Shown: in pieces, positions 1,440-17,343 of the stretch
How positions within the stretch are numbered: the stretch's first letter is position 1
Layout of the letters: each line of letters starts with the position of its first letter
Source of the DNA: a virus
Length of the DNA stretch: 21,828 bases
Strand: one strand, 5' to 3'
IMG/VR virus record: IMGVR_UViG_3300045733_000255
Span: 1-21,828 of that record
Notes under the pieces: model-generated
Seen by the model: the letters and a program-made list of their open reading frames with translations, nothing else
Told to the model about the DNA's origin: nothing
Databases searched by the model: none
Translations under genes and position numbers: made by a program

Positions 1440-3530
1440 TCAGGAACCGAAGGCAACCTGAACGCTGCCACCGCCATAGTTACGAACGATCGACCGAATG
1501 AAGCTCATGACCTCCCGGTCGCCGCGGAACTGAACCACAGCGACGCTCTGCTGGCTGGGAGCGCCGCCACCCATCCCGATGCCGCCGGTCCTGGGCGCCG
1601 GGATGCCGGACAGCGCGCCTGCCATCGCAGCCTTCAGGCGTGGCGCGGCGCTGTCCATCCCGTCACTGACCATGCTGACGATGGCCTTGCCCGCCCGCCC
1701 GCTGTTCAGCACCCGCAGTGGTCCGACCTTGACCGGGGATCCCGGCAGGAACCCGGAGATCGATCCGATGACGTCCCGCGCCGCACCCGCCAGCGCGCCC
1801 GCCATCGCCTTGATCCCGTTGATAATCCCCTGGATTATCTCGCGCCCCTTGTCGTACATGAGCGAGCCGAGATTGCCGATGGCGCCGACCACCCGGCCGC
1901 CGATCCCGCGTACGTAGTTGATCAATCCAACTACGGCGCCGACCACGGCGCTGTTCGCCCGGTTGAACGCGTCCCGGAAGAAGGTGACCACGGCGATGAT
2001 CCCGCGCACGATTCCGAGCATGATGTTGATCTGCATCCGGATGTAGCCGGAGATGAATCCCCAGACCGCGGACGTAACCGACTTGATCATGTTCCAAGTG
2101 CCGGAGATGAACCCCCCGAGCCATCCGAACACGGCGAGTCCGGCAGTCTTGATCGCCCCCCATGCCGCCAATACGACCGTGCGGAACGTCTCGCTGTGCT
2201 TCCACGCGTAGATCAGCCCCGCGACCAGGGCAATGATCAACACGATGATGATGCCAATCGGGTTGGCACTCATCGCTGCGTTCAGCAGCCATTGAACCCC
2301 GGCCCAGACCTTCGTAGCAGCCGAAGAGATTCCGGTCCAGACCGCGGTTGCTGCGGTCTGGATGTTCACAGCCGCCAGCGCGGTGACGATCTGCCCGAGC
2401 GTGCCCGCCATCGCGAAGCCGGGGCCGGCGAAGGAGACCAGGGCTGCGGTGGTGGTGCCAAGCGCGGACGACGAGCTGGTCTGTGCCTGAATCCACTGCT
2501 CGACCGAGCGCTTCATCGTGTCGATTTTCGCCTTGCCCGACGTCCCGGCCGCGTCGGCCATTCGCTGCGTACTCCCGGCCATCCCCTCCATCCCCTCCTC
2601 CGCGCCCGCAATCGAGGGGAGGATCCCGCGCAGGGTGTCCTCCCACTGCGTGCCGAAGAGGGCAACACCCGCCGCGTTCTGCTTGATCGGGTCCTTGATC
2701 TTGTTCAACGCCTGGAGAGTGGTCATCGTCGCGGACTGAGCCGCGGGTCCGCCCTTGGCGATCTGCGCTGCCGTGTCCTTGGCGTTCAGTCCGATCGCCT
2801 TGAAGCCATCGGCCGTTGTCTTGCTTCCGTCGATCGAGCGTAGAGAGAACTCCTTGAATGCGTCCGCGATCGTGTCGGTATCCCGCGCGCCCGCCTGCAA
2901 TCCTGCACTGAGAATGGTCAGCGCGTGCGCGCCGTCGATCCCTAGCTTGGAGAACTGCGGCGAGTATTCATTCAGGGTGTCCATGAAGTCGCCGGACTTG
3001 TCCAGTCCGAGCTGAAACCCCTTGGTTATGATGTCGAAAGCCTCGATCGAGTTCTTCGCGAGGCCGTTCTTGATCATCTGCCCAGCGGCCTTGGTCGACT
3101 CGTTCACATCGACCCCGAACACGTCGGAGAGAGCGAGAGCGCTCTCCGACATCTTCTGTAGGTCGGCGGATGACATCCTGGTTACGTTGCCGAGGTTGTT
3201 GCCTACGGCCTTGATCGTTTCGTTGATCTCGTCGAGGGATCCGCCGAAGTTGTTCGCGTAGACCTTGCCCGCAACGCCACCGATCCGGGCAGAGTCCTCC
3301 GCGCTCAGGTCGAGCTGGGCCGCCAGCTTCGCCCGGCCGGCGCCGATGTCGAGATTGGCGGCGATCCCGGCGCCGAGCGCGGCGCCCGCCGCAGCGCCGG
3401 CCACGGCGAGTCCGGCCTTCGCGGCGTCCCCGAAGCCGGCCAGTCGGCCGCGTGCCGCCGCAAGCCCCTGCCCGAGTCGCGAGTCGTCGGTGCGGAGGTA
3501 GGCGACCAGTTCGCCGATGCTCAGTGCCAC
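1440..3530 (-). CDS. Tail tape measure protein
   Basis: The 696-aa product sets tail length and is threaded through the tail tube, entering the host envelope at DNA ejection. It starts at GTG 3530, 38 bases after the tail chaperone gene, which is the canonical position. The N-terminal ~60 residues include an Ala/Gly-rich stretch. Residues ~100-350 are helical, a clear membrane segment lies at ~424-443 (IGIIIVLIIALVAGLIYAW), and amphipathic or hydrophobic stretches follow to ~590. Near 594-605 is FLPGSPVKVGPL, the F-PGSP-GPL signature common in tape measure C-termini. With the usual ~1.5 Angstrom per residue this predicts a tail of roughly 100 nm, an estimate from family knowledge. Confidence 0.93.
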   Translation of the reverse strand: MALSIGELVAYLRTDDSRLGQGLAAARGRLAGFGDAAKAGLAVAGAAAGAALGAGIAANLDIGAGRAKLAAQLDLSAEDSARIGGVAGKVYANNFGGSLDEINETIKAVGNNLGNVTRMSSADLQKMSESALALSDVFGVDVNESTKAAGQMIKNGLAKNSIEAFDIITKGFQLGLDKSGDFMDTLNEYSPQFSKLGIDGAHALTILSAGLQAGARDTDTIADAFKEFSLRSIDGSKTTADGFKAIGLNAKDTAAQIAKGGPAAQSATMTTLQALNKIKDPIKQNAAGVALFGTQWEDTLRGILPSIAGAEEGMEGMAGSTQRMADAAGTSGKAKIDTMKRSVEQWIQAQTSSSSALGTTTAALVSFAGPGFAMAGTLGQIVTALAAVNIQTAATAVWTGISSAATKVWAGVQWLLNAAMSANPIGIIIVLIIALVAGLIYAWKHSETFRTVVLAAWGAIKTAGLAVFGWLGGFISGTWNMIKSVTSAVWGFISGYIRMQINIMLGIVRGIIAVVTFFRDAFNRANSAVVGAVVGLINYVRGIGGRVVGAIGNLGSLMYDKGREIIQGIINGIKAMAGALAGAARDVIGSISGFLPGSPVKVGPLRVLNSGRAGKAIVSMVSDGMDSAAPRLKAAMAGALSGIPAPRTGGIGMGGGAPSQQSVAVVQFRGDREVMSFIRSIVRNYGGGSVQVAFGS

Positions 3531-3568
3531 CGGTCACCCACCTTCCATCGCCACCACGTCAGAGCACG

Positions 3569-4317
3569 TCAGAGCCAGGGTGTCACGTCGGCGCCCTGGC
3601 CGAGCGCGTCAATCACACGTTTCCGCTGCTCAGGACCGGCTCGGTCCCATAGCAGCCGGGAACGTGCCGTCATACACCCCTCGATCAGGGCCAGGAGCCA
3701 GGACCAGGGCCGCGCCTTCATCAGCGCCAGGTCCCCGACGTCCACCCGGTAGAGCTGGAGCAGGTCCGCCGTGAGCTCTCGCCAGTGATCGATCAGCCAC
3801 GTGTCCCATGCCTGCCCTCCGGCTTCCGGCGGTTGGACTATTCGCCAGCTGCCGTCCGGGAGACGGCCCCTGCCACGCCAGCCGTCTTCGAGGATCGTCC
3901 AGCCGTCGTTCGTCGTTTCGCCCGGTTCGGCTGGACCGGCGCTTTTCCCTCCCAGCACGCCGTTGCGGCCTCCTCGCCGCTCAGGTGCCAGACGGTGAGA
4001 GTGCCGATGATGTGCTGACGTCCCTCACCCATGACCCCCAGCTCGTCGAGCACGTCGCCGGCGTCACCCAGGAGCTCGCGCTCCAGGCGTAGCGCGTCCA
4101 TCTCTGTAGCCGCTCCCGTGCTGAGCACGAGTCCGGCGACGTCGGACGGATCCACGTCGCCGGACTCGATGCTTTCTGCTGCGGCGCGGCGGAGCGCCAG
4201 CAGCAGCGTGCCCGCCCATGCGCTGATCGTTCCGGGGAACTCCACGGAGCGCCCCCGGATAGGCAGCACCTTCGGCGTGGAGACGCCGAGGACGTCCGTC
4301 AGATCCCGGAATGCCAT
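3569..4317 (-). CDS. Tail assembly chaperone GT (frameshift fusion)
   Basis: The fusion is made by reading from ATG 4317 to the AAA codon ending at 3943, slipping back one base, then reading to the stop at 3569: 125 plus 124 residues, 249 aa. The downstream segment has no convincing independent start. It is rich in Trp and polar residues (DGWTILEDGWRGRG, DTWLIDHWRELTADLLQLYRVD). In lambda-like siphoviruses G and GT bind the tape measure and recruit tail tube protein in a fixed ratio set by a -1 frameshift. Gene order (tube, this, tape measure), overlap of the two frames and the G GGA AAA heptamer all fit. It is not a virion component in studied phages. Confidence 0.88.
3838..4317 (-). CDS. 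Tail assembly chaperone G (unshifted product)
   Basis: This 159-aa product is made when the ribosome does not slip. I chose ATG 4317, with GGGAG ten bases upstream. A GTG at 4326 (three codons longer) overlaps the tube-protein stop as GTGA and is an equally plausible start. The N-terminus MAFRDLTDVLGVSTPKVLPI and the central helical region resemble actinophage tail chaperones. The last ~34 residues after the slip site are basic (NRAKRRTTAGRSSKTAG) and are replaced in the shifted product. The partner is the tape measure encoded just downstream. Confidence 0.88.
   Translation of the reverse strand: MAFRDLTDVLGVSTPKVLPIRGRSVEFPGTISAWAGTLLLALRRAAAESIESGDVDPSDVAGLVLSTGAATEMDALRLERELLGDAGDVLDELGVMGEGRQHIIGTLTVWHLSGEEAATACWEGKAPVQPNRAKRRTTAGRSSKTAGVAGAVSRTAAGE
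3943..3949 (-). other. Programmed -1 frameshift site, G GGA AAA
   Basis: On the minus strand the heptamer GGGAAAA is placed so that zero-frame codons are GGA AAA (G124, K125 of the upstream protein), the X XXY YYZ pattern that allows tandem slippage to GGG AAA. Lambda uses the near-identical GGGAAAG. Slippage joins the upstream frame to the frame ending at 3569. A short inverted repeat (CCGGT at 3935-3939 with ACCGG at 3922-3926) begins three bases downstream and could act as a stimulator. Confidence 0.87.
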
Positions 4318-4322
4318 CCTGC

Positions 4323-4826
4323 TCACACGCTCCCCGGGTTCGGACTGACCGCGGTGCGGGCACCCTGACCCGTCAGGGTGAAGGACGCCACCCTGACGTC
4401 GTCGTACCCGTCCGCGTCCTCGCTCCACTCCACGGCAGCCGTGCCCTGCCAGGCCTCAGCCACGGGGCGACCCGACCCGTTGACCTCGTACCAACGGATT
4501 TCGATCACATTGAACGCGCCGTAGAGCAGCGCCTTCGCGCGCAGTGCCTCCTGGCCCACGTCGTAGGCGGTCGGCGCGGCGCTCTGCCCGGCGCGCTTCA
4601 GCTTGCCACTCAGCTCCCACTGATCGGCCGTCTTCTGCGAACTCTGAGCGCCACCGCCGTCGAACGTGCTCGTGTCCTTCATGACCGCCTTGACCGCGGG
4701 CTTGAAGGTCATCAGGCCGGACACGGGGGTCCAGGTCGGGGACACGCTGGTCCCCGTGTTGACGTCCAGATACCAATCCTTGACTCCGGACGCCGGTCCC
4801 AGGGCAACCCGGGTGGTAGCGGTCAT
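4323..4826 (-). CDS. Major tail (tube) protein
   Basis: This 167-aa protein is the building block of the tail tube. The start is ATG 4826, with GAGAGGA eight bases upstream. The N-terminus TRVALGPASGVKDWYLDVNT, the central KAVMKDTSTFDGGGAQSSQKTADQWELSGKL region and the C-terminal EWSEDADGYDDVRVASFTLTGQGA fit the beta-rich tube fold of the lambda gpV / gp17.1-like group. It lies between the tail terminator and the tail chaperones, the standard place. It is at the short end for the family and lacks an added C-terminal Ig-like domain. Confidence 0.85.
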   Translation of the reverse strand: MTATTRVALGPASGVKDWYLDVNTGTSVSPTWTPVSGLMTFKPAVKAVMKDTSTFDGGGAQSSQKTADQWELSGKLKRAGQSAAPTAYDVGQEALRAKALLYGAFNVIEIRWYEVNGSGRPVAEAWQGTAAVEWSEDADGYDDVRVASFTLTGQGARTAVSPNPGSV

Positions 4827-5642: not shown

Positions 5643-5962
5643 TCGAGCACCAGCTCCAGGTGATCAGGCGTGCCCAGTCCCGACGTGTGCAGCAGGGATG
5701 TGATCACCGTGCTGGCGCGGGAGCCGAAGGTTGCGGGCAGCGTCACCCTGGAGCCGTCCGGGATCGCCGTGGTGGTCGAGGCCAGGAACACGCGCGCCGA
5801 TGTGACCACCTGCTCACCGGTGCCCGACCGGGTCAACTTGTTCCCGGGGTCCACCATCGCAGCCTCGCTGGTCGCGGTGGCGAGCACGGGACCGTAGGCG
5901 CCCGCACCGGTCAGCCGCTCCACGCTCACGGCGAACGTGAACCACTCCGAAACGTCGGTCAC
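5639..5962 (-). CDS. Head closure (stopper) protein
   Basis: This 107-aa protein starts at GTG 5962, overlapping the adaptor stop as GTGA. It is compact and beta-rich, beginning MTDVSEWFTFAVSVERLTGA and ending with a strand-rich stretch containing STVITSLLHTSGLGTPDHLELVLE. Size and position directly after the adaptor match the SPP1 gp16 / lambda FII type stopper that closes the portal after packaging. There is no signature residue, so the assignment rests mainly on gene order and length. Confidence 0.72.
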   Translation of the reverse strand: MTDVSEWFTFAVSVERLTGAGAYGPVLATATSEAAMVDPGNKLTRSGTGEQVVTSARVFLASTTTAIPDGSRVTLPATFGSRASTVITSLLHTSGLGTPDHLELVLE

Positions 5963-6396
5963 AGGGTCATCCCGCGGAAGCTCAGCGCCGGGGTGTCCAG
6001 CAGTCCGGCCGACCGCAGGACCATCAGGCCCTGGGGGCAGAGCTGGGTAACTAGTGCAGCCTTGGCGTCGCGGGCCCTGTCCGCGAAGGTGTACGACACG
6101 GACGCTGACCCGATCGCGCTTGCCTTGATCGAAGAGTCGGTGCCCGCGGCGTCCGGATCCACCCCGGCAGCGGACAGCGCAGCAGCGTGCGCACAGGTGG
6201 CCTCCTTAAAGGCGGCCAGGGTGTCGGCGTCGGTCGGCAGGCCACCCGCGTCTACGAGGTAGAGCGCCGTTGCCGTGGCTTCGCGCACCAGCATGCTGCC
6301 CGCACGGAGCAGCGAAGCCGCGTTGCTGGGAGCGGCACTGCCCGTCCAGCTCCCCGTGCCCCAGCAGTCCGAGGACGCTGCATAGGTCGTGGCCAT
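5959..6396 (-). CDS. Head-tail adaptor (connector) protein
   Basis: This 145-aa protein starts at ATG 6396, four bases after the preceding gene. It is mostly helical: SNAASLLRAGSMLVREAT, then DADTLAAFKEATCAHAAALSAAGVDPD, a central strand pair (IGSASVSYTF), then ARDAKAALVTQLCPQGLMVLRSAGLL. This helix, beta-hairpin, helix pattern and the place at the head of the neck genes match HK97 gp6 / SPP1 gp15 adaptors, which form a ring on the portal. The N-terminal ~25 residues are Ser/Thr/Gly-rich. Confidence 0.75.
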   Translation of the reverse strand: MATTYAASSDCWGTGSWTGSAAPSNAASLLRAGSMLVREATATALYLVDAGGLPTDADTLAAFKEATCAHAAALSAAGVDPDAAGTDSSIKASAIGSASVSYTFADRARDAKAALVTQLCPQGLMVLRSAGLLDTPALSFRGMTL

Positions 6397-6400
6397 GCCC

Positions 6401-7732
6401 TCAGTCCCCGTAGAGCGCGATGAGAGTTGCCCGGGGAGCGGCGGCAGCGGCGGCCCGGTCTGCCCCGCGGGCGACCGCGTAGGAGATCCAGTCGGCCACC
6501 GGCGCCGTCCGCTTCGGCCGCACGACCGGGGGCAGGCTCAGCCCGGCATCAAATGCTGACGTCGGATCCACCACCTGCTGACGGGCGACAGCGGGGCCAG
6601 GCGTCGCCGTGCCGGCAGCGGACCCGACGTCCGCAGGCTGCCACACGAGGGGGTTGTCACGTAGGCGCCCGTGCATGCGCGTGCCTACCGCCAGCGTCAC
6701 CACTTCCTTGGTCCGGACGTTGCGGAATGTCTGGGTTTCCATCCGGTCACCCTCCCTCCCGATCACTGCTGCGATCTTGATCCTGGTCTGCTCCAGCTCT
6801 ACGGCCGGATCCAGCTCCGCGGCCCTGCGAAGGGCTGCGATGTGCAGGTCTGACCAGCTCGGATCGTCGTAGGCCAGCCCCAGTCTGGCACTCCACGCGT
6901 CCGGATCCGCGATGTCCAGCGAAGGCATACCCGGTCCGACGCACTCGCTCAGCCCCTGAGCCCTACTCGCGAGTACGGGTATCCCCCGAGCCATGGCCTC
7001 GACCGCGACCATGCCCCAGCTCTCCTCCGCGCTGGGAACCAGCAGCAAGCGGGTCATTGACCACACCTGGTCCATCGGCGTCCCGTGCGGCAGCACGGTG
7101 ACGTTGCGACCAGTCATCGCCACCTGCGCCCCGTACCCGCCCCGCACGACCAGGAACGGGATGTCCGGGTGGCGCTTCGCCAGCTCGGCAACCAGGCCGG
7201 CGCCCTTCTCCGCGCTGGCGCTGACCAGCGTGACGGCCAGCCCGTCCGGATCGGGGCCGGGCCACGGGGTCGGCCAGTCGATCGGAGGGCGCAGGATGTG
7301 CACCGGTGCACCGGTGCGGGCCAGACCCACCGCCATGAGTCCGGAGTTGGCGATCACCAGGTCCGGGCGGCTCCCCGCCGTGTGCGCCGCCAGCCACCCC
7401 GGGGGCCCTCCGTGCGCGGACACGACCAGGGGAACGCCCCATTGGTCGGCCATCTCGCGCGCCCGCACAAGGAACGGGACGTGAGCGAGCACTACGTCTG
7501 GCCGTGCGTGCCTCGCCAGCTCGGGTGTGACGACGTGCACATCGTCCACCCGGGCAGGGCGTAGGCCACGCACAGTGTGTGGAACCACGACGGACCGCCA
7601 GCCAGAGTCCGCAAGGTGGTTCAGCAAGCCGTGCGTGGCCAGCTCCGCGCCGATACGCCGATGGGGCGGGTAGGACAAGGTGTGAGCCACGATCCGCGGC
7701 CCTGGCCCCCTGCTCAGTCCCACCCGCCCCAT
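6401..7732 (-). CDS. GT4 glycosyltransferase fused to a small structural-type domain
   Basis: The 443-aa frame starts at ATG 7732 after a GGAGGAGG site. Residues ~1-330 are a GT-B, GT4-type glycosyltransferase: N-terminal RRIGAELATHGLLNHLADSGW, central VTLVSASAEKGAGLV, and the donor-site EX7E motif at E237-E245 within EESWGMVAVEAMARGIPVLAS. From M331 (genomic 6742) a second 113-aa module begins: METQTFRNVRTKEVVTLAVGTRM, a proline/valine linker, and a helical end PVADWISYAVARGADRAAAAAAP. That module resembles stand-alone proteins encoded just after the capsid gene in actinophages. No stop separates the two, yet a strong ribosome binding site precedes M331. It may make a fusion, two products, or both. 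The likely substrate is a virion or envelope protein (inference). Confidence 0.8.
   Translation of the reverse strand: MGRVGLSRGPGPRIVAHTLSYPPHRRIGAELATHGLLNHLADSGWRSVVVPHTVRGLRPARVDDVHVVTPELARHARPDVVLAHVPFLVRAREMADQWGVPLVVSAHGGPPGWLAAHTAGSRPDLVIANSGLMAVGLARTGAPVHILRPPIDWPTPWPGPDPDGLAVTLVSASAEKGAGLVAELAKRHPDIPFLVVRGGYGAQVAMTGRNVTVLPHGTPMDQVWSMTRLLLVPSAEESWGMVAVEAMARGIPVLASRAQGLSECVGPGMPSLDIADPDAWSARLGLAYDDPSWSDLHIAALRRAAELDPAVELEQTRIKIAAVIGREGDRMETQTFRNVRTKEVVTLAVGTRMHGRLRDNPLVWQPADVGSAAGTATPGPAVARQQVVDPTSAFDAGLSLPPVVRPKRTAPVADWISYAVARGADRAAAAAAPRATLIALYGD
6750..6760 (-). promoter_or_regulatory. Internal ribosome binding site inside the GT4 fusion
   Basis: The minus strand reads GGGAGGGAGGG, then seven bases, then ATG at 6742. 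This is at least as good as the sites of real starts in this operon. It would yield a separate 113-aa C-terminal product in the same frame as the glycosyltransferase. A TGA is present here in another frame (GGGTGACC). Confidence 0.6.
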
Positions 7733-7754: not shown

Positions 7755-8642
7755 TCAGACCGAGTCGGACAGGCCGTTGATCAGGACGGCGCGGGCGGGA
7801 TCCAGGGTCTTGATCCCGAACAGCAGGTCGAGGGTCAGGACGTCGGTCAGGTAGGTGGGATCCCACGAGTACGTAGCCCGGATGGACAGCCCGTCCCGGC
7901 TCAGGGTCTCCGCACGGGCGCCGCCCATGGCCGGCGCCAGCGGGCGTGCGACGAAGGCGAAGGCGTACGGGTGGAAAGCCACTCCGGTGAAATCGTCGAT
8001 GTTGTTCGTCTCGACGATGTCCATGCCATGAACCCGGCCGACGCTGGCCTCCCGAAGGGCCGTGCCCGCGTCGCCGCGCGCGTCGGCGCGGTTCATGAGC
8101 TCATCACGCTTCCACTGCGCCGCGATGTACTCGTCGACCACAGCGACCCGACCGGTCAGCGGGACCTTGGCTGTGGTCAGCATCCGCCCCGCGTCGATCA
8201 GGTCGAACGTCGGGTTAGGGTTGCTGGTCTTGTTGTACGCAGCGGCGGTGATCTCCTGCGTGACGTCGGTCCGCAGGCTCAGGATCGCCATATCGACCGA
8301 CGCAACCAGCGCGTCGATCGCCGGGGTGACCACCTGGGTCTGCAAGTCGGTCAGGTTCAGCGCGGCGTCCGCGCTCGTGAGCGCGATCGTCACTTCCTTG
8401 TGGTGGTCCAGGGTGATCGAGTCGTAGGTCTCGGTGATGTTCTGCCGCGTGGTGCCGACGCTCTGGACGAAGTCGTGCGCCACGAAGGTGGCCGGCTTGC
8501 GGAAGTTGACCGTGGCGCCGACCCCGGGAGCGAAATCCTCCTCGAAGCCGCGGAAGACCAACGGCAGCATGACGGTGTTGTTTCGCAGGGTCGCGAGCCC
8601 CATCCGAGCAACGCGCTGCGGAAGGGTGAAGGTGTTCGACAC
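7755..8642 (-). CDS. Major capsid protein (P22 coat-like, HK97 fold)
   Basis: The 295-aa coat protein starts at GTG 8642, with GAGAGG seven bases upstream. Features seen in P22-coat-like capsid proteins are the N-terminal helix and arm (PQRVARMGLATLRNNTVMLP), GATVNFRKPATF, the QNITETYDSITLDHHKEVTIALTS strand region, the long spine helix VVTPAIDALVASVDMAILS, and near the C-terminus TYSWDPTYLTDVLTLDLLFGIKTLDP. It follows a scaffold gene and no protease gene is seen, consistent with a P22-type head that uses scaffold release rather than prohead proteolysis. Confidence 0.88.
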   Translation of the reverse strand: MSNTFTLPQRVARMGLATLRNNTVMLPLVFRGFEEDFAPGVGATVNFRKPATFVAHDFVQSVGTTRQNITETYDSITLDHHKEVTIALTSADAALNLTDLQTQVVTPAIDALVASVDMAILSLRTDVTQEITAAAYNKTSNPNPTFDLIDAGRMLTTAKVPLTGRVAVVDEYIAAQWKRDELMNRADARGDAGTALREASVGRVHGMDIVETNNIDDFTGVAFHPYAFAFVARPLAPAMGGARAETLSRDGLSIRATYSWDPTYLTDVLTLDLLFGIKTLDPARAVLINGLSDSV

Positions 8643-8692: not shown

Positions 8693-9451
8693 TCAGTGCC
8701 AGCCTCCCGGCTTGCGCGATCCCTTCGCGAGCTTGTCGAGGTTGTCCCAGTTCAGATCATCGTCGCCCTTGTCCTTCGTGCCGCCCTTGATCTCCCCGCC
8801 ACCCTGGGTGGTCGGCGTGCCGACCCCGAGCTTCGGGTTCTCCTTGACGGCCTGGGACACGGCAGCCTTGAGCGACCCGGCGAAGCCCTCAGACTTCGGG
8901 TCCAGGTCCTTGATCGAGGCCAGGAACGTCCGGGAGTCCAGCAGGGCGCCCGGGTCGCCCCCCTCGGCGCCGGCCAGCTTGAGCACCTGGAGCTCCACGA
9001 GGGTGCTCCGGTGCTCTTCGCGCGCCGTGGTCAGGTCTGCGGCCAGCTTCTCAGGGTCGGGCGCCTGGTCGCGGGCCAGACCGAGCGCCTTCGTCAGCTT
9101 GCCCAGCAGGGCGGCTTCGGCCTCCTGGGCAGCGGTCTGCTTTCCGATCGTGCGCGCCTTGGCAGCGTCGCTGCGCGCCTCGGCGAGCTGGGAACGCAGC
9201 AGCGTCAGCTCCGCAGCAGTGTCCGTGCCACCGGTACCGGTCCCGCCGGGCTGGGTGCTGGACTGCTGGGTACCGGTCCCGCCGGGCTGGGTGCTGGACT
9301 GCTGGGTACCGGTCCCGCCGGAGTTGGCGCCGTCTCCACCGTTACCGGTCCCGCCGGGCTGGGTGCTGGACTGCTGGGTGCCGGTCCCGCCGGAGTTGGC
9401 GCCGTCTCCACCGTTACCGGTCCCGCCGGGCTGGGTGCTGAGCTCTGTCAT
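8693..9451 (-). CDS. Capsid scaffolding protein with Gly/Gln/Ser repeats
   Basis: The 252-aa protein starts at ATG 9451. Residues ~5-78 are a repeat array of STQPGGTG..TQQS and NGGDGANSGGTG type. Residues ~80-160 form a charged coiled coil (ELTLLRSQLAEARSDAAKARTIG onwards). The rest is mixed helix, ending with a lysine-rich segment and KGSRKPGGWH. A coiled-coil, charged protein just ahead of the coat gene is the normal scaffold. No Shine-Dalgarno site is seen; a TACGCT box seven bases upstream suggests leaderless expression. The low-complexity N-terminus is unusually long and not typical of the functional scaffold core. Confidence 0.82.
   Translation of the reverse strand: MTELSTQPGGTGNGGDGANSGGTGTQQSSTQPGGTGNGGDGANSGGTGTQQSSTQPGGTGTQQSSTQPGGTGTGGTDTAAELTLLRSQLAEARSDAAKARTIGKQTAAQEAEAALLGKLTKALGLARDQAPDPEKLAADLTTAREEHRSTLVELQVLKLAGAEGGDPGALLDSRTFLASIKDLDPKSEGFAGSLKAAVSQAVKENPKLGVGTPTTQGGGEIKGGTKDKGDDDLNWDNLDKLAKGSRKPGGWH
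9236..9439 (-). repeat. 36-bp tandem coding repeats, two unit types (A-A-B-A-B-A')
   Basis: Units start at 9236, 9272, 9308, 9344, 9380 and 9416, exactly 36 bases apart. All begin [A/G]CCGGTCCCGCCGG (plus strand). Type A continues GCTGGGTGCTGGACTGCTG; type B continues AGTTGGCGCCGTCTCCACCG. The last copy is partial and runs into the scaffold start. Near-perfect identity indicates recent duplication or ongoing gene conversion. The units encode 12 residues each. Confidence 0.92.
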
Positions 9452-9534: not shown

Positions 9535-9864
9535 ATGGCCAGAACTCAGCACACCCGGCATCGCGCGCACGTCTCGACGGCGCGCCGATTCTTTCAAGGA
9601 GCCTCGATCGGGGCTGCCCTCGTGGTCGGCGCCCTTGTGATCACGCTGGGTGCGCTCGTGCTGGGCGTGATGGTGCCGAACAAGCCCGATCAGGCAGCGT
9701 GTACTACTGACCTGGTGCAGGTCGGACTGGAGAACATGACCAACGGAAAGCCGGCTGCCGCCCAGCCCCGCCCCGCTTCCTGTAACGGGCTGAGCGAGGT
9801 GAAGTACGCAACGGCTCGACACGAAGCGGCGGTCCAGATCACCGCTATCGTGTCCGGGCGCTGA
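9535..9864 (+). CDS. Single-pass membrane protein, putative moron
   Basis: This 109-aa protein is the only plus-strand gene in the window. It has a basic N-terminus (MARTQHTRHRAHVSTARRFF), one membrane segment at ~22-47 (GAALVVGALVITLGALVLGVMV), and a ~60-residue outer domain with two cysteines (C56, C83) that could pair. Positive residues before the segment predict the C-terminal domain outside the cell. It is wedged between the MuF-like and scaffold genes, convergent with the former (11-base gap) and divergent from the latter, with its own promoter. This is the layout of a moron expressed apart from the late genes; superinfection exclusion or host-surface change is possible but is inference. 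I do not recognise the family. Confidence 0.75.
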   Translation: MARTQHTRHRAHVSTARRFFQGASIGAALVVGALVITLGALVLGVMVPNKPDQAACTTDLVQVGLENMTNGKPAAAQPRPASCNGLSEVKYATARHEAAVQITAIVSGR

Positions 9865-12616: not shown

Positions 12617-13900
12617 TCACGCTGCCGTTGTGCCTGTTGTCGAGATCACCGGGTGCCAGAGCGAGCGGGAGGAGTGTCCTCCGTAGCGCCAGGCGTCCAG
12701 TTCGTCGTCAGCTTCCTTGGTCGGCTTGTCCTGCCCGAGCTTGGAAGCCTTCTCATCCCAAGCGTATCCAGGGATCATCTCCACCAGCCCTTCGTTCGCC
12801 TTGCTGATCTTCGCCCTACCGCTGCTGAGGGCGGACGCCATCGTTCTGATGCCCGGGGCCACTTCGTTGCTGGCCAGCGCCACCCCGGGCATGCCCGACT
12901 GCCACAGGTGCTCACGGAAGTCCGCGGCAGCGGGATCGACGAACACCCACTCCGGACCACGGTCCCCGATCCAGTCAGCCAGGTGCCTGGCGTACTGGGC
13001 GCTTGTGAGCTGGGAGCGCTTCACGCGGCTGCTCCAGCGCCACTCGTCGGTAGTCCAGAGCACGCCGTGCCCGATGGCCAACATCTCCGCGGCGAAGGTG
13101 TGCCGGGTGCCGTAGTCCACCCCTACGGCGATCGGTGTGACGTCGTGCGGGATGTCCCTGGGCTCGACCAGGTGACGCCCGGGATCCCACATGTCGTAGA
13201 TGCTGCCCTCGCTGATCACCCACTCGCCGAGGATGAACCGGCGGCGCCATAGGCCCGTGTATTCGGCCTCAAGGTTGCGGATGTAGTCCCGCCCAAGGTG
13301 CGGATTGTCCGGCAGCACGAAGGACATCCGTATGAGGTCGATCTCAGGTTCTGCTCCCAGCGCGCGAACCGGCTTGGTCAGGGAGCCATCGGGCGCCAGC
13401 CATGCGCACGCCCGATCGAGCTCCAGCTTGAGCCAGTGCCGCGGGTTGTCCGGGTTGGTCGTGGCGAACAGCCGGGCGCCGTCGATCGAAAGCCGGGTGC
13501 CGAGCATCCGCCACATGCCTTCCGGCACGAGGGTCGCCTCGTCGACGTACGCACCGGCCAGCGTCATGCCGCGGATCTTGCCCTCGGCCTGGCTGTCGTT
13601 CGCGCCGACCAGGTAGATCCGCCGTCCGGAGATCCACAGCTCCCCGGACCCCTCTACCAGTTGTGCTCGCTTGCCGAGCATGCTCAGGATCACGCCGATG
13701 ATGTTGCGCTTCAGGGTGCGCTCGGTCTTCCCGCACATGAGCAGATCGCCAGGTGGCCCGGTCCGCACGAAGCGCAGCCACGCGAAGATACTCGCGACAG
13801 TCTTGCCCGAGCGGACCGAGCCATCCCAGACGTTCAACCGATGCGTGGCCAGGTGCACGCTCCGTTGCGCCTTCCCGACCAGGGGGGAGTAGGTGCTCAC
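12617..13900 (-). CDS. Terminase large subunit
   Basis: The 427-aa DNA packaging motor and headful or cos nuclease starts at GTG 13900, overlapping the upstream stop as GTGA. The ATPase half has a Walker A at residues 26-34 (DGSVRSGKT), Walker B with catalytic acid at D120-E121 (AGAYVDEAT), and a TTNP coupling motif at 147-150. The RNase H-like nuclease half has D262 (VGVDYGT), D322 (VFVDPAAADF) and the acidic cluster at 398-402 (DDELDAWRYG). Length is normal for the group, and all key residues are present. It works on the portal encoded next. No small subunit lies immediately upstream; the HTH protein at 17377-17928 is the only candidate seen. Confidence 0.95.
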   Translation of the reverse strand: MSTYSPLVGKAQRSVHLATHRLNVWDGSVRSGKTVASIFAWLRFVRTGPPGDLLMCGKTERTLKRNIIGVILSMLGKRAQLVEGSGELWISGRRIYLVGANDSQAEGKIRGMTLAGAYVDEATLVPEGMWRMLGTRLSIDGARLFATTNPDNPRHWLKLELDRACAWLAPDGSLTKPVRALGAEPEIDLIRMSFVLPDNPHLGRDYIRNLEAEYTGLWRRRFILGEWVISEGSIYDMWDPGRHLVEPRDIPHDVTPIAVGVDYGTRHTFAAEMLAIGHGVLWTTDEWRWSSRVKRSQLTSAQYARHLADWIGDRGPEWVFVDPAAADFREHLWQSGMPGVALASNEVAPGIRTMASALSSGRAKISKANEGLVEMIPGYAWDEKASKLGQDKPTKEADDELDAWRYGGHSSRSLWHPVISTTGTTAA

Positions 13901-14634
13901 CGACCGCGCTGCGCCCTGATTGCCTTGATCTTGGCCAGGTCGTCAGTGAAGGCTCGTGATGCAGCCCAGCTCTGAACGCCCATATTGTCCGCCCTGAACT
14001 GCTTGGGGTTGTCGTTCGCCTCTTGGTAGGTGGCGTCGTTCGGCGCCCCCGCGATCCTGTGAAAGTGCCGGATCAGCACTCCGGTCTCGTGGAACAGACA
14101 GCCCGCGGCCAGCCCGAGCTGTCTCCACGCCACGTCGATGCACAGGTGGGTCAGTCCCGGCGGGGAGACCCACCCCAGGGCCTCGTAGAGCTCGATGCTC
14201 ATCACGGTGGCGGTCGGCAGGACCAGGTGCCCCGGATGTCCGTCCAGCGGAACGCCGTCCCAGATTCCATCCCGTCCGTACACCCAGCCCGGACCCTCTA
14301 CCGCCAGGCGGTCGACGAAGGCGGCATCCCAGCCACGCGTGATGGGGATGTTGTCGTCGCCCCAGAGCGCCAGGTGGGTGGCACCACCGACCATGGCCAC
14401 CCTGGCGAGCTCGTTCCATGATCGGGCGAGTCTGATCCTGGGCCCGGTCGAGTACCAGATCCGATCTAGGTACTGGAGTGGGTAGTCGCCTGCGGTCGGG
14501 TCTTCGTTGTCCAGTCGCACCAGCAGCCGCACCTGCTCCGGGTGCGCCGCGGTGCTCTGTATCGCATCCCACAGCCGAGCTATGGACGCCGGGCGCCCCC
14601 TGCTCGGCACCAGGACATCGAGCTGGTACGTCAT
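13897..14634 (-). CDS. GT2-like (GT-A) glycosyltransferase
   Basis: The 245-aa protein starts at ATG 14634, three bases after the preceding gene. It begins with the GT-A nucleotide-binding strand and turn (LDVLVPSRGRPASIARLWDAI). It has LLVRLDNEDP near 37-46, ARSWNELARVAMVGGATHLALWGDDNIPITRGWDAAF with the DxD-like GDDN at ~92-95, and a later metal or acceptor-site helix region (LCIDVAWRQLGLAAGCLFHETGVLIRHFH). Proteins of this layout recur in actinophage genomes beside structural genes. The acceptor is unknown; virion protein, host cell wall or teichoic acid, or DNA are all possible. It is the last gene of the modification cassette and is translationally coupled to terminase. Confidence 0.78.
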   Translation of the reverse strand: MTYQLDVLVPSRGRPASIARLWDAIQSTAAHPEQVRLLVRLDNEDPTAGDYPLQYLDRIWYSTGPRIRLARSWNELARVAMVGGATHLALWGDDNIPITRGWDAAFVDRLAVEGPGWVYGRDGIWDGVPLDGHPGHLVLPTATVMSIELYEALGWVSPPGLTHLCIDVAWRQLGLAAGCLFHETGVLIRHFHRIAGAPNDATYQEANDNPKQFRADNMGVQSWAASRAFTDDLAKIKAIRAQRGR

Positions 14635-14637
14635 GCC

Positions 14638-15255
14638 TCAGCCCTCCGGGTAGAGCGCCGGGTATCGGCGCCGGAACAGCTCGGTATCCACTGCGATGTC
14701 GGTGCTCATGTCCCGGTCGTAGGCCCAGTCGGTCCGCAGGTGTCGGATCGCAAGGCCCTTCACCCCGAGCGCGCCGAGCGGACGCATCTCGCGGGCCCGG
14801 CACTCCAGATCGTGATCACCGAACCACCAGCGGAATATCTCGTCCGGGCGGATCGCTGCCGGGTCGAGCGCGAAGGCATAGCCGGCGATCTCGGTCACCC
14901 GAGTGGCCGCGTGCTCGGGATCGTCCGGCCATACCAGCAGCGGACCGTCCGATCCGACATCGACGTGTGCTGCCAACTCCAGCAGGGCACCCGGGTCGGC
15001 GCCCACGTCGTCGTTGCACACCACGACCACGTCAGCCCCTCGGCCGACCGCGTAGTCGATGCCCCGATTCCACCAGCGATGGATGTTCGGCGCCCCGACA
15101 TCATGGATCACGGTCGAGTCGCACTCCGGCCAGGGCCGGAGATCTCCGGCGACGTCCGTGCGGACGACGACCGAAGGCATCCCCGAGCTCATGAGCAGCG
15201 GGACCAGGTAGTGCGCCCGGTTGTTCAGGGTCGGCACCACGAGCCAGGGGGTCAC
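14638..15255 (-). CDS. GT2-like glycosyltransferase (short)
   Basis: I chose GTG 15255, which overlaps the upstream stop as GTGA, over a TTG three codons earlier; this gives 205 aa. It begins TPWLVVPTLNNRAHYLVPLL, has APNIHRWWNRGIDYAVGRGADVVVVCNDDVGADPGALLELAAHV with NDDV at ~81-84 as the DxD-like site, then IAGYAFALDPAAI and DEIFRWWFGDHDLECRAREM. This is a compact GT-A catalytic domain with no membrane segment. It is paired with the next glycosyltransferase gene, so the two may add successive sugars (inference). Confidence 0.75.
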   Translation of the reverse strand: MTPWLVVPTLNNRAHYLVPLLMSSGMPSVVVRTDVAGDLRPWPECDSTVIHDVGAPNIHRWWNRGIDYAVGRGADVVVVCNDDVGADPGALLELAAHVDVGSDGPLLVWPDDPEHAATRVTEIAGYAFALDPAAIRPDEIFRWWFGDHDLECRAREMRPLGALGVKGLAIRHLRTDWAYDRDMSTDIAVDTELFRRRYPALYPEG

Positions 15256-15398
15256 AGCGGCCAACCCCGCTCGCGTTCGTCCTGGTACGTCTGCGCGCTG
15301 TCCTCAACCTCGGCGCGCCTCTCCAGGACACGGGCAGCGAACCAGCCCCCGATCCAGCCCAGTACGCCGCAGGTCAGGACCCCCAGAAACGTGATCAT
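15252..15398 (-). CDS. 48-aa membrane-anchored peptide
   Basis: ATG 15398 overlaps the upstream stop as ATGA, and its TGA (15252-15254) overlaps the next GTG start. The N-terminal half is a Gly-rich membrane segment (ITFLGVLTCGVLGWIGGWFAA), followed by RVLERRAEVEDSAQTYQDERERG, a charged cytoplasmic-type helix. The GxxxG spacing could support dimerisation. Position between glycosyltransferase genes suggests an anchor or accessory subunit, although holin-like proteins can look similar; no lysin is nearby. No family is recognised. Confidence 0.75.
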   Translation of the reverse strand: MITFLGVLTCGVLGWIGGWFAARVLERRAEVEDSAQTYQDERERGWPL

Positions 15399-15748
15399 CG
15401 GATGCCCCTTCCCCTTCCCGGATAGTCAACCTGAGGAACCACTTCGGTCATCGGTAGCTCCACCACGGATGTCGGGATCATGACGTCGGTGGTGGGGTTC
15501 CACATCACGGTCTCCCCCCGCGGCACGCGCGCCCGACAGGGCACATCCGGGATCCAGTTCAGGGATGCAGGGCCGCGCCCTCGCGGGTCGCGCTGGTGCC
15601 GGGATTTCTTGGCCTTGACGCCGTCCTCGATGGCAATCCTGCGCAGCGTGAGCATCATGCCGACCAGCACGCCGGTCGACAGCGCCGCCGTAGCCGCCAG
15701 GAACATGACCCATGCTGGTGCGCTCGTGAACTCGCTCAGGATCGGCAC
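15395..15748 (-). CDS. 117-aa single-pass membrane protein
   Basis: GTG 15748 lies six bases after AGGAG and overlaps the GT17 gene by 13 bases. Residues ~12-34 form a membrane segment (AWVMFLAATAALSTGVLVGMMLTLRR), followed by a basic patch (KAKKSRHQRDPRGRG) predicted inside, then a Pro/Val-rich C-terminus ending in YPGRGRGIR. There is no lipobox. It belongs to the same translationally coupled string as the glycosyltransferases. The function is unknown. Confidence 0.72.
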   Translation of the reverse strand: MPILSEFTSAPAWVMFLAATAALSTGVLVGMMLTLRRIAIEDGVKAKKSRHQRDPRGRGPASLNWIPDVPCRARVPRGETVMWNPTTDVMIPTSVVELPMTEVVPQVDYPGRGRGIR

Positions 15749-16539
15749 AGCATCTCCTTGAAGTAGTCATCATGCGCGGCCTGGGGGAGCAGTCCGGTCT
15801 CCACCAGGGCGCAACGGTCCAGGATGTCGAGACGCCGACCAATCCGGAGCTCGATCTGCTCCAGGGTGAAGCGCTGGAGCTCCGTGTGAGCACACGCCCG
15901 AAACTTCGCCCGGACGGCAGCAGCGCCACCCTGGAGCGTCATGTGCCAACCCCGAAGAGCTGAGTCCTCCTTACCCAGCTCGACCGCCGAGTAGCCCATC
16001 CATTGAAGTGCGCGCAGGTCCGCACCCGCCTCGAACCCGGTTGCCGCCGGGTCACCCGCCCGCAACGTGATCGGCTGCCGGAACTCCCAGATATGACCAG
16101 GGGACCCACTGGCGCGCAGGTCGAGGAACCACTCGTGATAGGAGCCCCATAGCCGCGCCCTTCCGATCCCGTCGTCCATCACTCGCGCCAGCGCTCGCGG
16201 GTTCGGGATTTCGTCATGGTCCGCCAGCAGGATCACGTCATCGTCGCTGACCGCAACGTTCTTGGCGTGGAGCAGACACGATGATCTCAGGTACTCCTCG
16301 GCCAGCCAGGGGGATCCGAACGCCTTCGCCTGTGTCAGTCCGCGCCACTCCACCTTGTGTGCGAACGGCGCGAACTCGGGGAGTTCCTTCAGGTCCGCCC
16401 AGTCGAAGTCCCGGGGCACTCCGGTGTGAGTCCGGTCAGCCTCGACCATCACATGTAGGTCGACCACGTCCACCAGCTCGCGGAAGCGCAGCAGCAGAAC
16501 CTCGGGGCCATAGGCGTAGGGGAACGCGTCGATCAGCAC
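15736..16539 (-). CDS. GT17-type glycosyltransferase
   Basis: The 267-aa protein starts at GTG 16539, with GGGAGG eight bases upstream and a 7-base overlap with the previous gene. It closely follows the GT17 (bisecting N-acetylglucosaminyltransferase-like) pattern: IDAFPYAYGPEVLLLRFREL, then VVDLHVMVEADRTHTGVPRDF, a central DDDVILLADHDEIPNPRAL with acidic DHDE at ~107-110, an HEWFLDLRASG region, and LRGWHMTLQGGAAAVRAKF. In bacteria and phages the true donor and acceptor are mostly unknown, so the eukaryotic activity should not be assumed. Confidence 0.85.
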   Translation of the reverse strand: MLIDAFPYAYGPEVLLLRFRELVDVVDLHVMVEADRTHTGVPRDFDWADLKELPEFAPFAHKVEWRGLTQAKAFGSPWLAEEYLRSSCLLHAKNVAVSDDDVILLADHDEIPNPRALARVMDDGIGRARLWGSYHEWFLDLRASGSPGHIWEFRQPITLRAGDPAATGFEAGADLRALQWMGYSAVELGKEDSALRGWHMTLQGGAAAVRAKFRACAHTELQRFTLEQIELRIGRRLDILDRCALVETGLLPQAAHDDYFKEMLCRS

Positions 16540-16766
16540 GGGATCGGCCTCCCGCCGACCATGCGCCAGTCCACAGCGCCCTGTCGGCGGTCATCGCGCG
16601 CCTGGTCGCGGACCGCCTCCACCGCGGCGCAGACGTCACCCACGCCCCCCGACAGGGCGCGCAGGATCGCGGCAGACCGCGCCGCACCCTCGCCCAGCAG
16701 GGCGCCTGCGCCCTGCTCCGGATCGCCACCTAGGAACAGTAGGTGTTCCGTCCTGACCTTGCTCAT
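16533..16766 (-). CDS. Hypothetical 77-aa protein
   Basis: ATG 16766 overlaps the methyltransferase stop as ATGA, and the end overlaps the GT17 start by 7 bases; this nesting is the main support. The product is MSKVRTEHLLFLGGDPEQGA onwards, Ala/Gly-rich, with a central helix (AARSAAILRALSGGVGDVCAAVEAVRDQARDD) and one Trp near the end. There is no membrane segment and no known motif. Confidence 0.65.
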   Translation of the reverse strand: MSKVRTEHLLFLGGDPEQGAGALLGEGAARSAAILRALSGGVGDVCAAVEAVRDQARDDRRQGAVDWRMVGGRPIPC

Positions 16767-17320
16767 GCCTGAGCCCTCCAGTACAGATCGCCGGTCGTGG
16801 GGAACTCCGGACGGAAGTTGTACTCCACGACCACTTCACCATCGAACCGACCGAGCAGGGCCTGGGCCAGTTCGGTTGGCCAGACGTTTTCGTACCACTC
16901 TCCCGCCGCGGGATCGAGCGCCCCGCGGGCGCCGTGCGGCCTGCGCTCGATCGATGCGCAGGTACCGATGATCCATCCGCCCGGGCGCAGCACTCCGCGC
17001 GCTCCCGCCACGATCGCACGCCATCCACCCACGTGCTCCAGGGTCTCGGTCGAGATCACCAGGTCGTAACGCGCGCCGTGCTCCTCCAGGAGACCGCGCC
17101 AGAACTCGGGCACGGTGGCGTCCCCGACGATCGTCACGCCCGACCCCGGCGCCACGTCCAGCACGTCCAGCAGCTCCACGCCGTGCCGCTGCCGCAACGC
17201 CGCGTGGACCGTTCCATTGACGTCCGCCCCTCCGACGTCCAGCACGTCCAGTACTCGCGACAACCTCCCATAGGCGCCGAGTAGCTGATTCTTGAACCCC
17301 TGAAGTGCGGTCGGGTGCAT
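16763..17320 (-). CDS. SAM-dependent methyltransferase
   Basis: The 185-aa class I methyltransferase starts at ATG 17320, with GGGAG six bases upstream; GTG 17323 is an alternative. Motif I is VLDVGGADVNGTV at residues ~25-37, then LLDVLDVAPGSGVTIVGDAT, YDLVISTETLEHVGGW for motifs II-III, and RGVLRPGGWIIGT as the post-motif strand. This is the pattern of small-molecule or glycan methyltransferases, not of DNA methylases: no NPPY or target-recognition domain is present. With glycosyltransferases downstream in the same transcript, O-methylation of a sugar is the simplest reading (inference). Confidence 0.83.
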   Translation of the reverse strand: MHPTALQGFKNQLLGAYGRLSRVLDVLDVGGADVNGTVHAALRQRHGVELLDVLDVAPGSGVTIVGDATVPEFWRGLLEEHGARYDLVISTETLEHVGGWRAIVAGARGVLRPGGWIIGTCASIERRPHGARGALDPAAGEWYENVWPTELAQALLGRFDGEVVVEYNFRPEFPTTGDLYWRAQA

Positions 17321-17343
17321 CACTTGCTCCCAGCAGTGGTCAT
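17320..17343 (-). CDS. Putative 7-codon leader peptide coupled to the methyltransferase
   Basis: ATG 17343 opens MTTAGSK, and its TGA shares a base with methyltransferase ATG 17320 (TGATG). A TAGGGT -10 box lies exactly seven bases before ATG 17343, so the transcript could start at this codon and be translated as a leaderless mini-frame that feeds ribosomes into the cassette. Its own codons contain the GGGAG that serves the next start. It is too short to claim a functional peptide. Confidence 0.45.
   Translation of the reverse strand: MTTAGSK

Follow-up and report, generated by a model that had tools for sequence, protein, structure and literature searches.

Why would a phage carry a glycosyltransferase (GT) between its coat and adaptor genes, and why would this enzyme run without a stop into a head-region protein that in other phages has a gene of its own? 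The question is raised by IMG/VR virus record IMGVR_UViG_3300045733_000255, whose 21,828 bases form the window analyzed here and whose phage probably infects actinobacteria. Some phages are shielded from antibodies by the glycosylation of their virions, and which phages do so is largely unknown. The head and tail operon of the window is of the ordinary tailed-phage type, with the minus-strand gene order terminase, portal, MuF, scaffold-like, P22-type coat, a 443-aa frame, adaptor, connector genes, major tail protein, and tape measure (coordinates refer to the minus strand unless marked otherwise). The major capsid protein (MCP; 7755..8642) is P22-coat-like (PF11651, P22_CoatProtein, 4.3e−27; phrog_283, 8e−49), the probable scaffolding protein (8693..9451) was assigned from its position, its homology to scaffold-slot genes and a match to phrog_8952 (1.9e−36), for which PHROG gives no function, and the head-tail adaptor (5959..6396) is Ad1-like (phrog_541, 4.6e−9; phrog_477, 0.006). 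The placement of a GT between coat and adaptor genes, noticed in an earlier sequence-only reading of this DNA, was confirmed by Pfam or PHROG matches for all three genes.

The frame in question (7732..6401) translates into 443 aa without a stop and consists of a GT-B/GT4 glycosyltransferase (aa 1–330) and, without a linker, a 113-aa head-region protein (aa 331–443); the two segments were searched separately. The GT domain (6743..7732) matched phrog_26352 over aa 13–324 (4.8e−41) as well as Pfam group-1 glycosyltransferase models (Glyco_trans_1_4, 8.7e−12; PF13692, 45.9 bits, cut-off 27; PF00534, 44.3 bits, cut-off 26.4). The EX7E residues E237/E245, the phosphate-binding lysine K176, and G28 were invariant in 46 aligned rows. 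AlphaFold2 returned a GT-B model with pLDDT mostly around 90 for aa 11–320, and the nearest solved folds found with Foldseek were MshA (2e−15), GlgM (1e−13), and PimA (3e−13). The segment is a GT4 glycosyltransferase with an intact catalytic motif, whose activity is predicted from sequence and model. Several kilobases of sugar chemistry are also found on the terminase side of the window (13897–17323), where two or three more glycosyltransferases and a methyltransferase are encoded: a second glycosyltransferase adjoining the terminase gene (13897..14634; phrog_14945, 1.3e−27), a possible one that is GT2-like by eye only, with no match in the Pfam and PHROG searches (14638..15264), a GT17-type enzyme (15736..16539; PF04724, 3.2e−13), and a SAM-dependent methyltransferase, possibly a sugar methylase (16763..17323; phrog_32762, 4.2e−10).

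The C-terminal 113 aa (6401..6742) are PHROG 2322-like, as judged from a profile match, from the alignment with free post-coat proteins starting at M6742, and from the model. The match to phrog_2322 ('head-tail connector') had an e-value of 1.6e−10 and covered only profile positions 53–126 of 126, and the connector role is to be read as the annotation label of this PHROG. In keeping with the genomic context of that family, the C-terminal part lies behind the coat and ahead of the adaptor, here with the GT inserted between the coat and itself. Its model shows an N-terminal beta hairpin, a low-confidence middle, and a C-terminal three-helix mini-domain, which about 70 low-confidence residues link to the enzyme. 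A fold search with the C-domain model gave no significant match among solved structures, and tblastn of the C-terminal part alone against phage records gave no relative.

At the junction the fused frame reads ATC GGG AGG GAG GGT GAC CGG ATG, the last codon being the internal start of the C-terminal protein (6740..6742), and the G-run GGGAGGGAGGG (6750..6760) is both the ribosome-binding site of ATG 6742, as judged from sequence and pairing energy, and the candidate site of a one-base length difference. The pairing with the anti-SD ahead of this ATG reached −12.5 kcal/mol, the strongest of 18 starts tested in the window. Only 2 of 276 in-gene ATG/GTG codons reached the same value, and as the scan included the GT gene, ATG 6742 should account for one of them; the internal start exceeds chance expectation. 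Homologs of the C-terminal part also begin at this position, and together with the SD strength this argues that the start signal of a once separate and probably still used gene is present here. A free C-terminal protein is therefore probably made from ATG 6742 anyway, in which case both translation products, the fusion and the free protein, would exist. An out-of-frame TGA (6747..6749) lies 4 nt ahead of the ATG, and a one-base change in the G-run would bring it in frame. This TGA is weak evidence when taken by itself, as an out-of-frame stop is found within the 12 nt ahead of 13% of in-gene positions. The last helix of the GT aligns up to a few codons short of the G-run, so that a shift in the run would be free of cost and both states would fit a working enzyme.

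Relatives of the two halves are almost always encoded separately. GT homologs are free proteins of mostly about 320–345 aa that end at the junction position, a median of 8 residues beyond the profile end, and C-domain homologs in portal-related phages are free proteins of 92–97 aa (some called longer) that lie between coat and adaptor and start at the position of M6742. At 19 loci the gene right after the GT encodes a small post-capsid protein on its own, and the stop of the GT overlaps the start of this gene or lies within a few bases of it. In four distinct relatives (L303, L305, L306, and L310, the last identical in sequence there to L175 from Actinokineospora and counted once with it) the GT stops with a TGA one codon ahead of the next start, and GT and small gene share one frame divided by this TGA and a single codon (TGA CCC ATG in L305, L306, and L310; TGA ACC GTG in L303). 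The stop in these four same-frame loci is a candidate leaky stop, with a TGA-C context in three of them. The only other fusion seen was in L110 (IMGVR_UViG_3300016268_000041), where a GT4 likewise continues in frame into a small post-capsid protein and the join contains TGATG out of frame. Unlike in the window, the small protein of L110 is of a different type (52 aa, with a basic tail and no C-terminal helical mini-domain), and its SD is weak (−4.2 vs. −12.5 kcal/mol). L110 is far from the GT of the window, and the other members sampled from its clade have no fusion, so the two fusions are independent, and the fused form would be either a derived state that is rare and arose twice, or a one-base error that escaped detection. 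The sequence-only reading had described an in-frame join to a protein that is elsewhere a separate post-capsid gene, with a strong ribosome-binding site and ATG at the join, and this observation holds; its interpretation was supported in part. Separate genes, which it had named as the pattern that would speak against a real fusion if found always, are the rule but for L110.

Further searches for fused relatives were made. The fused protein, searched directly in IMG/VR and in species genomes, had no relative, and no second copy of the junction turned up in IMG/VR in a pattern search that tolerated additional bases in the G-run. Five apparent spans of GT and C-domain with an internal TGA (L245, L249, L254, L267, and L270) were rejected as chance extensions into other genes, while the TGA-containing match in L241, which covers the locus of L175, consists of two genuine genes. 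Long C-terminal extensions of other GT homologs were discarded as well, being GT-GT tandems, unrelated tails, or open high-GC frames, with the exception of L110. In L316 a GT4 (3001–4089, plus strand) stays open in frame into 308 more residues that by appearance are a second, GT2-like sugar transferase.

The position of the enzyme turned out to be a recurrent one. Among 129 GT homologs with pairwise identities below 90%, an MCP gene lies upstream within 1.5 kb in 80, and in 75 the GT stands between MCP and head-tail adaptor genes whose identities were checked with Pfam and PHROG; these fractions are valid for this GT4 family only, because the homologs were collected by their likeness to the GTs of the window and of Streptomyces phage TurkishDelight. 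No MCP was detected ahead of the GT in 44 of the 129, several of which are second GT copies behind the adaptor or belong to a different Streptomyces context; at some loci a GT is found on each side of the adaptor. The neighboring MCPs fall into two Pfam families, Phage_capsid and P22_CoatProtein, and the GT is therefore linked to the capsid slot rather than to a single lineage. The MCP-GT4-adaptor order recurs in dozens of phages and is well supported as a genomic pattern. We consider this capsid-linked GT4 family more interesting than the fusion itself, as a GT4 between capsid and adaptor genes would be an easily read genomic sign that a capsid may be glycosylated, and isolates such as TurkishDelight allow this to be tested. 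An MCP followed by a GT4 (RefSeq annotation) also occurs in L284 (2505–4916) on the complete 88-kb Streptomyces plasmid NZ_CP108705, which carries phage head genes and is a probable phage-plasmid. Further sugar genes were seen behind the GT4 in L101, where the next gene matches phrog_1721, and in L142, where the next but one matches the glycosyltransferase phrog_1579. Streptomyces loci L217, L220, L230–L232, L236, and L237 encode GT-GT tandem proteins, several of them followed by a protein of about 234 aa that we liken to the major tail protein following TurkishDelight gp20.

Known systems resemble the locus in part. TurkishDelight gp20 belongs to the same family as the GT of the window (phrog_26352, about 35% identity) and likewise lies in the region between the major capsid and tail genes, two genes behind the MCP, but it is a two-GT tandem of 678 aa with no head-protein fusion and with the major tail protein gene next to it. 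Gordonia phage Aleemily has a coat with 40% identity to that of the window; its gp8 occupies the same post-coat slot and matches the C-domain profile, while the head region shown has, unlike the window, no GT. Free actinophage post-capsid proteins of this kind (phrog_2322 'head-tail connector', Aleemily gp8) are homologs of the 113-aa C-terminal part in the window, small phrog_748-like 'head-tail connector' proteins occupy the same slot behind the GT, and post-capsid proteins were separate genes in all cases seen except for the window and L110. Mycobacteriophages Che8, Corndog, and Myrna, which like the phage of the window encode glycosyltransferases, are described in PMC12363180 (citing Freeman 2023) as having glycosylated virion proteins and using their own GTs for this. 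In Che8, gp108 carries a methyltransferase domain behind its GT2 domain, and gp109 belongs to phrog_1721, the PHROG of the gene next to the GT4 in L101. Unlike the GT4 of the window, the Che8 enzymes are of GT2 and GT25 types and are encoded at the far end of the genome, with gp109 and gp110 being other GT types. A comparison of the window GT4 with the Che8 gp108 GT detected no similarity. Virion GTs belong to several families, and likeness to a tested virion GT is not a required feature.

Taken together, we favor, with a probability of about 0.65, the view that the head operon encodes, at the place customary for its family, an enzyme that glycosylates the virion, and that its gene has lost its own stop while the resulting fusion to the next protein is tolerated. 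The kept active-site residues and GT-B fold, the slot between MCP and adaptor, and the division of homologs at the junction all point this way, and given this slot and the known glycosylated mycobacteriophage virions, the GT most likely glycosylates the capsid or a neighboring virion protein. It would add a sugar from a nucleotide-sugar donor to the adjoining capsid protein (or another virion protein), and the glycan may be extended or capped by the products of the GT/methyltransferase cluster on the terminase side. The stop of the GT would have been lost, probably when the G-run in the ribosome-binding site of the next gene became longer or shorter by one base, and the enzyme would then read into this small head-region gene. 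With an ATG and a very strong ribosome-binding site of its own, the small gene would still yield its free protein and the fusion would be tolerated; in our best reading the fusion is incidental or mildly useful. The target, the sugar, and the mechanism of the fusion are what we infer here. Against a virion role, which is a predicted one, stand the wider substrate range of GT4 enzymes, which includes lipids, small molecules, and polysaccharides, the negative comparison with Che8 gp108, and the 44 homologs with no MCP detected ahead of them. The versatility of GT4 enzymes also underlies the rather improbable idea that the enzyme modifies a host surface glycan, e.g., to exclude superinfecting phages, and lies in the head operon only for the convenience of late transcription: surface glycans and small glycosides are often the products of GT4 enzymes, and MshA, GlgM, and PimA are the closest solved folds. 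Without a head link, however, the MCP-GT-adaptor slot in 75 of 129 homologs with two capsid families is hard to explain, and superinfection-exclusion genes are usually expressed in lysogens and not from a late operon.

The fused state itself could be a sequencing or assembly artefact, in which the contig is one base wrong in the G-run, the GT in fact ends at the TGA before 6742, and the phage always makes two separate proteins. The out-of-frame TGA lies where the four distinct relatives have the stop of the GT, a shift in the run would cost the enzyme nothing, and all 19 free pairs obey the two-gene rule. However, the other examined genes of the window are intact, so that the contig is not generally error-prone, the run is no long homopolymer but three short G triplets, in which short-read indel errors are rare, and a fusion of the same kind exists in the second, unrelated record L110. 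With the intact genes and L110 in mind, we regard a real change as somewhat more likely and an artefact as unlikely, albeit with some weight; an indel hiding a TGA, the dull alternative of the sequence-only reading, gained from the relatives and lost from L110 and the intact genes. Conversely, the fusion may have been selected as a tether, with the C-terminal head protein bringing the enzyme to capsids under assembly, whose subunits would then receive their sugar as assembly proceeds or immediately afterwards. Two independent fusions to a small post-capsid protein, the one shared frame in L303, L305, L306, and L310, where read-through would give the same product, and the long low-confidence linker in the model are consistent with this, but head binding by the C-domain is putative, its PHROG label being an annotation and no solved fold matching it, the proteins are kept apart in the great majority of relatives, and the excess of fusions is marginal (2/14 to the small gene vs. 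0/57 to the adaptor, p = 0.037, or about 0.07 in a larger sample by hand calculation). The tethering design proposed from the sequence found no direct support, as the enzyme is separate in relatives and the fusion occurs in two records only, and we hold such a tether to be highly doubtful. It would be just as much of a long shot that some phages link the GT of the capsid operon physically to the post-capsid head protein, either permanently, as a fusion (window, L110), or through a leaky stop (L303, L305, L306, and L310), and that a fraction of the head-protein copies takes the enzyme to assembling capsids, where it adds the sugar on the spot. A functional fusion would mean that a glycosyltransferase is brought to the capsid by tethering; we know of no earlier case.

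Elsewhere in the window, a GGGAAAA slippery heptamer (3949..3943) lies, correctly phased, where the tail-assembly-chaperone frames 4428..3838 and 3958..3569 overlap and, judging by its sequence, looks like the ordinary −1 frameshift of these chaperones. A 109-aa ORF with a hydrophobic segment (9535–9864, plus strand) is encoded on the opposite strand between the scaffold and MuF genes, and a lipoprotein-like ORF (3052–3417, plus strand) occupies the same slot in L003, but there it is oriented with the operon.
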